DNA of 64,000 nucleotides from Strigops habroptila (lineage: Eukaryota; Chordata; Aves; Psittaciformes; Psittacidae): assembly GCF_004027225.2 (NCBI RefSeq), contig NC_044278.2:62508243-62572242 (forward strand), given 5' to 3'. The stretch's first letter is position 1. Each line of letters starts with the position of its first letter. The translations under genes and the position numbers were made by a program. Below the pieces are notes generated by a model. It saw only the letters and a list, made by a program, of their open reading frames with translations, made no database searches and was not told the origin of the DNA. Shown one piece after another: positions 57,401 through 64,000 of this stretch.

Positions 57401-60400
57401 TTGGAGATGGCCTTGCCTCCTCTGGAGGTCCAAGCAATCTATCCTCCAGACTCTGAAAACCATGCAGCAGCACTTCCAAAAACCAGCAGCACATTGAAGC
57501 AGCATCACACACATTAAAAACATTGAAAACCAGCATCTCCAAGTGAGGAGAGGGGTGAGGAGACTGAAGTCCATGTTAGGTCATCTCACAGCTTCAGGGA
57601 GGAGCCAAAGTATCTGCTTTGTCACCTGGCTTAGCTCACACTGCTGGGAAGTGACTTCTGCAGGCGTGGGGTTCCCCCTGTGCATGGGAGGCACCTGCCT
57701 GGTTCCTCCCAGCCATAGGTGGGACTGGACTTGACTGTCTGTAGTTGAGATAGAGGTGGATACGCTTCACTAACAGATCACATATTTAAGAACAGCAGGA
57801 TGCAACTTGGGAAAAGGTGGTGAAGAAATATTAGAGATGATGTCTTGGCCTGTTGAAAATGGTGGTCATGCTCCCAAACCTGAGAAACCTCTGACTTTGC
57901 TCTCCTTCCCGGAGCAGGGAGCATGGTATTTTCCAAACACTGGGACAATGCAGACTCAGCACTACCCACATTTTCTGTCATGGTCTCAGACTTTAGTGTC
58001 ATTATACCAAAGCCCTTGCACAGAAAGCATTTCCAATTTACATGGTGATGATGCTGGTTTGCAGGTGAGGTCATATTGGAAGAGATGCAGATACCCTAAA
58101 TAGGTGCCATGGCTGTTTGCTTGTTTTCTACTGCTTGCTGGTGAACACAGATCAAACATTCAACCCATGCAACATGTCTTGGTACTTAAGGCAATGCAGT
58201 ATTCCCACAAAGGTTACATCTTAAATGATATCCTATAAGAATGCTCCAATGTGGAAAAGGAAAACCTTGAGCAGAGCTCACTAGTAATATATTTTAATGA
58301 AGCTGGTTTTGAATTTTATAGCTCATGAGCGATTAATTACAGTGAATAGTCCTTGCAGAGAAGGTCTTATCTTCTTCCCTTCACAATCAGTAGTAGTTTC
58401 GCTATACTGACCTCACTGAGAGCAGGACTAGTCCATATTTTACAGTGCCTGTTTATTGCATCCAAAGTAGTTCGTAAGTGAGAGGTAAGCAGGGCATCTG
58501 GTTCCACTGCTGTACTGAGAGATTAGAGGTGGCCTTAAATCACATTGGTTGATGGCCCCACGTGTGTTTCTGAATACACTAGGCAGACACTTCTCTGGGA
58601 GGAGAGGAGCAGTCTTCTCCTATGGCAAGCTTTCAGTTAGAATATCAGCAGACTGGCTATAGGAGGGAGAGTGAACCAGGATATTTTTAGACAATCATAC
58701 CCAGAATTCTGGTTTTTATTATGAAAATTCCTCATAATTGTGACAAATGGGGATCTTGGTGTAACATGGGAGCCTTGCCTCCTTGGCTATGGTCAATTCA
58801 GTAAGGGAAAGGTGGATGTCACCACATTATGCACATGAGAGTGTGCACTTGTGCTATGCTGAAATGTGGCTATTCCAAATCAAAACCTACAAAGTATTGT
58901 TTGTCACATTAGACATGGGCCAGCTGTCATGCTTTTTTCTTTTATTGGCCTTTAAAAATATCTACGAAGTCATTATAAATAGACCTTCTTCCATTCAAGA
59001 TGGCAACTTCATGCCACTGCTAAGGGATGTAATTTTCAATATGTGCACTTGAAATGCAGCCAAGTGGAATCCAAATGTCATGACCTAACTGCATGAGGAC
59101 CAGCCCCCCACTTTGCCCCCATAATATCACAGTGGGGGGCCAGGTCAAATTTCTTTTGGAGTCCATGGGGTACCAGCTGCTGGGGCACAGCTGGGCCTTC
59201 TGCAACCTTTTGAGGCTGACACTCCCTGAAGGATGACCCTCTTTGCAGCCTTTCTTCATTTTCTACTTGTGAGCTTAATCTAAAGAATTTTTTATTCCAC
59301 TTCTGCTCATAAAAAATAATCCCCTCCAGGTATGCAGGCTGCATTCTGTGCGTGAAGCTATTTCACTGCACGGTGAAGCAACTTTCCAGCTTTTTGTGGT
59401 GTCAGAAAGCTGACACCTCTTGCTTTTTCCCCTGCTAGCCCCATCTATTGTTATTGACTTCATGCTCCAGCTTTTGTGCTGAGTTCACTATTTTATTTAG
59501 TAACTGATCCACACTAATTAAAGCACTGCCTAAATCCCCAGCTGTCCAAGGGCCTGATTCTTCAAACCCAAGTGTAGGTCCAACATACAAGCCCTCTTCC
59601 TCCAGATCAAAGGCAATTGTAGTCAAAGGACATTGCCAGGGTTGTAGTTGTGGTGCTACCCTTCACGAAGCAGATTTAAGAGCATAGTTGTGATGTGGGA
59701 TTTGAATGCTATCAAAAAGCAAGTAATGCAAATCCTGTGGGGTCTTTTTTAACTCTGGAGAGGTACCTACTGGCTTCTAACCTGTACCAACAGCAAAAAC
59801 TATCAGTGGCACACCTGTGCTCCTCAGCCTTGATATTTTTTTAATGGTTTAAGTCTGGTTTTATAACCCAGAGGCAGAACCATGTTTTTCTGCTAATTAC
59901 GCTCTAGTTATATTTATCTTTGCCTACACTTTACCTAGCAGGAGAGGAAAACAGCTTCGATGTTGCCCTCACACTAGGACACAGTGATACTAAATGAGTG
60001 AGGAGTGGCACAGAGGAGACGTGGTCACCCCAACTAGCGTTGCTTGCTCCTTTAAGTGCTTCCACTGACCACAAAACACTGAAGAAAGAGCTGAAGGTGC
60101 CATGTGGGACCATGTGAAGCCCTATGCGCCCCTGCTACACCATGCCTCACGAAGCTTGAAAAGCACTTTGCATGTTTTTTAACAGGCCACTAATGACAAC
60201 CGTCTTGAGAAGTTCTAAATTAATGTATTTTTTTCCATTTTATGCTCAGCAGCATGCCATTAAAGCAAAATAAGGAGGTAGCGGAAATGCTGATGACTTG
60301 AAAAGAACATTCGTGTTTTCTCTTGCACAGCACCAAAAGCACACGCTTTTGTGGAGATGATAAGATGCTGGTAGACCCTTTGGTGCTGAAGAAGAAGCTC

Positions 60401-64000: not shown

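Follow-up and report, generated by a model that had tools for sequence, protein, structure and literature searches.

The analysed window, a stretch of 64,000 nucleotides of the Strigops habroptila genome (contig NC_044278.2, positions 62,508,243 to 62,572,242), includes the ADPRHL1 gene, the eighth exon of which is confirmed to be genuine coding sequence in frame with exons 1-7. It is likely that this exon is the terminal coding exon of a long form of ADPRHL1, and that the gene produces a splice-gated pair of isoforms, the longer of which bears a disordered tether. The inactive ARH fold of the long form would serve as a docking module and the tail as the tether. The coding status of exon 8 is concluded from the statistics of its open frame and from its three-base periodicity, both compared with controls. 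The long exon itself is already known from chicken, where the gene comprises eight exons encoding 1,934 residues (PMC8427608), and from predicted transcripts of frog, mouse and other vertebrates, with a low support level in mouse (PMC7390403). The remark in the preliminary description that the exon is easily overlooked is thus not supported.

The ADPRHL1 core and the open frame of exon 8

The coding exons of ADPRHL1 are located on the forward strand at 33168..33381 (exon 1, coding part, with the ATG at 33168), 36984..37148 (exon 2), 43547..43672 (exon 3), 46260..46400 (exon 4), 49431..49558 (exon 5), 53028..53160 (exon 6) and 54262..54415 (exon 7, in the form spliced to exon 8). Each of exons 2-8 is preceded by an AG acceptor, and each of exons 1-7 is followed by a GT donor. 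Residues encoded by 33177-33428 match ARH1 with an E-value of 3e-11, and residues 1-353 of the joined core, exon 2 included, align to ARH1 (3hfw) with an E-value of 2e-95. Exons 3-7 were delimited by splice sites and frame together with this alignment, and the exon 6/7 junction is identical to a published chicken primer in 20 of 20 bases. The joined core also contains the Pfam domain PF03747 (ADP-ribosylglycohydrolase, E 3e-58, residues 6-327).

The catalytic motifs of ARH1 are SDDT and DSDS (PMC9738213). Both are degraded in the gene described here, SDDT to SDNT and DSDS to ESAA, and the absence of intact Mg-binding motifs of the SDDT and DSDS type sets the protein apart from the active hydrolases ARH1 and ARH3. 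The ARH fold combined with SDNT and ESAA therefore identifies the gene as the pseudoenzyme ADPRHL1/ARH2. Four features of the ADPRHL1 (ARH2) long form were found, namely the ARH fold, the degraded Asp motifs, a short form of 354 residues and an in-frame exon 8. ARH1 (ADPRH) and ARH3 share with ADPRHL1 the PF03747 fold of exons 1-7, but the human proteins, of 357 and 363 residues (PMC9738213), have no such tail, and the catalytic motifs are degraded in the present gene.

Exon 8 starts at 60331, its acceptor being ttctcttgcacag/CACC, and its part within the window, 60331..64000, contains no stop in 1223 codons. The surrounding open frame (60302-64000, forward strand) counts 1233 codons since the preceding stop and runs on past the edge of the window, and no other open frame listed for the window is longer. 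The codon at the junction is split, with two bases coming from exon 7, which ends at 54415, and the third from exon 8. When exons 1-8 are joined, the part within the window makes up 1577 codons without a stop, including a tail of 1224 residues if the junction residue is counted. The preliminary description had reported an exon open for at least 1223 codons from 60331, with a good acceptor, the phase of exon 7 and a tail of 1224 residues in the window, and had called it the largest coding feature there; all of this was reproduced. It had also proposed a downstream extension in search of the stop. The following 10 kb of the host genome, which match the window exactly across the overlap, supplied it as a TAA at positions 5210-5212 of the host-genome sequence L001, equivalent to window positions 65540-65542. 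Exon 8 is thus the final exon, about 5.2 kb in size and stop-free over 1736 codons. Counting the junction residue, the complete tail is 1,737 residues long; the long form as a whole has 2,090 residues and a predicted mass of 233 kDa.

An open frame arising by chance or left by a pseudogene can be practically dismissed. When the 3670 bases of exon 8 in the window were resampled 300 times by a first-order Markov model and read in all six frames, the longest stop-free run never exceeded 238 codons (mean 135), compared with 1223 in the real sequence, which excludes chance. The remaining two forward frames of the same part contain 123 and 52 stops. The three-base periodicity is 3.38-8.33 in all 11 windows of 600 bases within this part, far over the background (mean 1.05, maximum 2.63) taken from windows stepped over 34000-60000, exons 3-7 included, and the frame continues that of an intact core. 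Along the whole exon, the periodicity is at least 3.38 in each of the 16 windows with starts at L001 1-4501. The signal is already faint over the last coding bases, with 1.12 in the window from L001 4801, where some 410 coding bases are followed by the first part of the 3′UTR, and beyond the stop it is down to the background level. An antisense open frame of 214 codons (60589-61233, reverse strand) also lies within exon 8 and probably arises from the coding sequence on the opposite strand.

It is very improbable that exon 8 is a gene of its own, made of one exon and placed downstream of ADPRHL1. An internal ATG close to the start of the frame (M in ...GDDKMLVDP) and the weakness of the linking exon-7 donor would suit such a gene, but the acceptor is matched in phase and in frame with exon 7, the chicken protein of 1,934 residues is encoded by one gene of eight exons (PMC8427608), and the predicted vertebrate adprhl1 transcripts include exon 8 (PMC7390403).

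The exon-7 donor and the choice of form

The donor of exon 7 (54413..54423, forward strand; AAA/GTAAAGCG) is the weakest among the seven donors of the gene. Its U1 duplex energy is -3.2 kcal/mol versus -6.5 to -13.2 kcal/mol at the other ADPRHL1 donors, and its score by a donor matrix is 0.62 versus 2.17 to 7.15. Among 1342 GT sites in 33401-60000, 8.6% equal or beat this donor by the matrix and 35% by the U1 energy. When intron 7 is retained, the frame reads AAG TAA over the donor and terminates at exactly 354 residues, the length of human ADPRHL1 (PMC8427608, PMC9738213). The TAA (54417..54419, forward strand) occupies bases 2-4 of intron 7. Removal of the intron therefore also removes the stop of the short form, and splicing decides between a protein with the tail and one without it. 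Such a stop alone is no proof of regulation, since any phase-2 intron starting with GTAA yields it automatically.

An AATAAA at 54677..54682 (forward strand), recognised by the motif only, may be the poly(A) signal used by the short form. Between this signal and exon 8, a pyrimidine-rich repeat of the TTTTTC type extends over 55325-55631 of intron 7; it could affect the splicing of this intron.

The primer pair used for RT-PCR of chicken ADPRHL1, with a printed product of 260 bp (PMC8427608), can be placed on this gene. The forward primer is the exon 6/7 junction, with no mismatches in 20 bases, while the reverse primer maps with 5 mismatches in 23 bases to 54489-54511, that is, 74-96 bases beyond the exon-7 donor. 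The product predicted for the present gene is likewise 260 bp. This suggests that chicken RNA exists from which intron 6 has been removed and in which the start of intron 7 is retained, although RT-PCR reaching beyond the exon-7 donor could also pick up partly spliced precursor RNA. Since the reverse primer lies past the donor, the chicken expression data would reflect the short form or incompletely spliced precursor RNA, and the primer pair would miss the long form (PMC8427608).

Because the exon-7 donor is weak, an isoform switch at this site is proposed. The weak donor would leave transcripts that retain the start of intron 7 and encode the 40-kDa pseudoenzyme, and excision of intron 7 would give the 233-kDa form. 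In failing human heart, ADPRHL1 is among the top shifts in isoform usage according to a figure legend in which the isoform is unnamed (PMC9641957). Should a single weak donor determine the long form, it would offer a direct route to measuring and switching the two forms.

Composition, repeats and constraint of the tail

The tail is not uniform. Its start, about 300 residues encoded by 60332..61228 (forward strand), is basic and helix-prone, with a pI of 10.05 and six of the eight tail tryptophans. Residues 301-660 are acidic (pI 4.79), as are residues 661-1110 (pI 5.74), and residues 1111-1552 are basic again (pI 9.62) and poor in hydrophobics (12% FILMVWY). In the putative tether, the helix-prone basic start would be followed by an acidic middle and then by the basic repeat array. 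After the hydrophobic-poor region, the tail end becomes more hydrophobic (...SSFKPLIIRVIDTFKHHS, L001 5125-5209, equivalent to window positions 65455-65539). Perhaps this end is a short binding motif; it has no relative in the genome search.

The tail is probably disordered and floppy, as judged from its amino acid sequence. All 20 FoldIndex windows over the in-window tail are below zero, in agreement with the disorder suggested in the preliminary description. AlphaFold gave helices with a mean pLDDT of 44 for the first 297 tail residues, modelled with no alignment, and a single four-residue helix with a mean pLDDT of 60 for one 49-residue repeat unit modelled with an alignment of nine rows; with inputs of one row and of nine self-related rows, such low confidence carries little weight as an argument for disorder.

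The preliminary description had also found no recognised domain in the tail, and this was borne out. No Pfam family was detected at E<=10 in the 1222 in-window tail codons, none was detected in the 513 downstream codons, and the PDB sequence search with the tail gave no match. No known tail domain (Ig, PDZ, LIM or similar) reached the Pfam cut-off. A Holin_BhlA match in the first 200 tail residues (E 0.18, 12.3 bits versus a cut-off of 22.6) was rejected as a coincidence of hydrophobic helices. A membrane anchor at tail residues 32-50 was rejected as well; the top 19-residue hydropathy there is 1.40, and the usual threshold for a membrane segment is 1.6. The scan of IMG/VR with the first 323 tail residues gave four pattern stretches, none of which was confirmed. 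Queried with its first 323 residues and with its last 120 residues, the tail matched only itself among the best candidates scored in the host genome, apart from one chance match for each query, both with stops (E 0.92 and 8.5, respectively). For the middle of the tail, the genome search used solely a 450-bp DNA unit.

This unit belongs to an in-frame tandem array that starts at 63792 (63792..64000 on the forward strand within the window), straddles the window edge and ends at window-equivalent 64851. The unit corresponds to exactly 150 codons and is present in 2.4 head-to-tail copies with 91% matches. No copy contains a stop in the coding frame, and the two other frames contain 25 and 11. Copies A and B show 21 differences in 450 positions, and the third match is 73% over 292 bases; since the copies differ in sequence, an assembly artefact is thought unlikely. 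The genome DNA search with the unit gave no match outside the array among the best candidates scored.

Each 150-residue block consists of three units of about 49 residues. Nine such units, placed by profile matches, begin at 63659 (63659..64000 on the forward strand within the window) and continue to window-equivalent 64984, covering tail residues 1111-1552. The profile was seeded with three units picked by eye. After iteration, nine of its 14 matches are above the 99% shuffle level, and the nine units score 67 to 85 bits versus at most 10 in 200 shuffles, but the final profile includes the scored units; the fair figure is that of the first round, which also gave nine matches above the shuffle level of 9.6.

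Upstream of the array, tail residues 671-1020 (62327..63439, forward strand) form a degenerate repeat region, recognised by self-alignment and by counts of six [S/T]S[D/N][D/E] cores, which is the older repeat. There are 63 self-alignments of 20 residues with a score of at least 35, where 40 block shuffles gave 7.9 on average and never more than 19. For the six cores, 500 shuffles averaged 0.7 and reached 4 at most. In a leave-one-out procedure, a 22-residue profile recovered four of the six cores and missed those at tail residues 863 and 954. The offsets are enriched near 47-50, 97-100, 108-111 and 238-242. A strict period was rejected, no one period exceeding the shuffles, and the repeat is called irregular.

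Comparison of the array copies revealed no significant purifying selection between them. Copies A and B are separated by 7 synonymous and 14 nonsynonymous changes (dS 0.075, dN 0.041, p 0.18), and the dN/dS of about 0.55 is indistinguishable from 1. For B and C, dS is 0.331 and dN is 0.193 (p 0.15, from rounded counts), and for A and C the values are 0.248 and 0.213. The differences between A and C by codon position are 16, 4 and 11 of 54 each, and such an excess at the first position is unlike simple constraint. Any constraint on the array is weak at best.

These data bear on the possibility that exon 8 is translated and yet, past the first 300 codons or so, drifts near-freely without a sequence-specific function. 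This explanation is conceivable, although we consider it the less probable one. It is favoured by the lack of significant constraint between the array copies and by growth of the tail through repeats, as well as by the divergence of the exon-8 region L-p2 between frog and mammals, with L-p1 conserved (PMC7390403), and by the variable length, 1,934 residues in chicken versus 2,090 here (PMC8427608). On the other hand, the 1736 codons are stop-free with strong periodicity up to about L001 5100, and the six short-repeat copies differ most at third positions (83 versus 47 and 50 differences, of 165 each).

Under the preferred reading of exon 8 as the coding end of a tethered long form, the length of the tether would be changeable through in-frame duplication of 150-residue blocks. 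A further step, which is speculative and rather doubtful, would be a two-state ADPRHL1 set at one weak donor, with the tether length tuned in each lineage by 150-residue blocks of three units. Retention of intron 7 would then yield the pseudoenzyme on its own, and its removal would join that fold to the tether. If this were true, cells would pick the state, and the reach of the single docking module would be fixed by the species. The tail is a clean example of a probably disordered region expanding by nested in-frame duplication. In the available parts of the literature, no description was found of the stop inside the exon-7 donor, of the nested array or of the lack of a second genomic copy of either tail end and of the 450-bp unit.

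Related systems, site of action and genomic neighbourhood

The closest known counterpart is chicken ADPRHL1, the same gene, with the ARH pseudoenzyme fold followed by a very long last exon; the present protein, however, is 156 residues longer (PMC8427608). Adprhl1 of Xenopus laevis and mouse has the same extra 3′ exon, the first part of which is conserved between frog and mammals, but the large form in Xenopus is about 100 kDa versus the 233 kDa predicted here (PMC7390403). The available text of that paper contains no mention of the repeat array. C10orf71/CEFIP, a heart protein predicted to be disordered throughout and found at the Z-disc and myofilaments, resembles the long form in its presumed way of working; it differs in having no ARH fold, and the comparison is one of published descriptions (PMC11178530).

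The preliminary description suggested a structural role for the tail at myofibrils, and the published data do not favour it. The protein localised beside the Z-disc is the 40-kDa ADPRHL1, which was also the form used in the over-expression work, where myofibril defects are described (PMC4990356). In Xenopus embryos, exon-8 probes gave little signal in the forming heart, and a form of about 100 kDa was detected in the tadpole gut (PMC7390403). The available Xenopus data thus speak against a large role of the long form in the embryonic heart.

It is possible, if not the explanation we prefer, that the long form is real and works mainly outside the heart, in which case the heart would depend on the 40-kDa protein and the tail would play no part at myofibrils. 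The low cardiac signal of the Xenopus exon-8 probes and the gut species (PMC7390403) point in this direction, as does the chicken RT-PCR pair, which detects the short form only, its target being RNA that retains the beginning of intron 7 (PMC8427608). Against it stand the shift of ADPRHL1 isoform usage in failing human heart, where the isoform is unnamed (PMC9641957), the restriction of the Xenopus in-situ data to embryos (PMC7390403) and the presence of ADPRHL1 protein, in an unstated form, in the breast muscle of day-1 chickens (PMC4980056). In the embryonic brain of the zebra finch, ADPRHL1 is a co-expression hub with CMYA5, LDB3, KLHL40 and TTN, the form again being unstated (PMC13327539). 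Exon 8 is not mentioned in the available parts of PMC13327539, PMC4980056 and PMC9641957. In humans, ADPRHL1 is found at loci for left anterior fascicular block, QRS-T angle, hypertrophic cardiomyopathy and ventricular shape.

At the beginning of the window, the GC content of 501-2250 is 0.70-0.76 in windows, resembling a CpG island near the start of the upstream gene, and several long frames listed in this segment may be the product of GC content alone. Upstream of ADPRHL1 and on the same strand, frames at about 4160-24400 (near 4160, 9702, 22052 and 24355) resemble exons of DCUN1D2, as judged from motifs.
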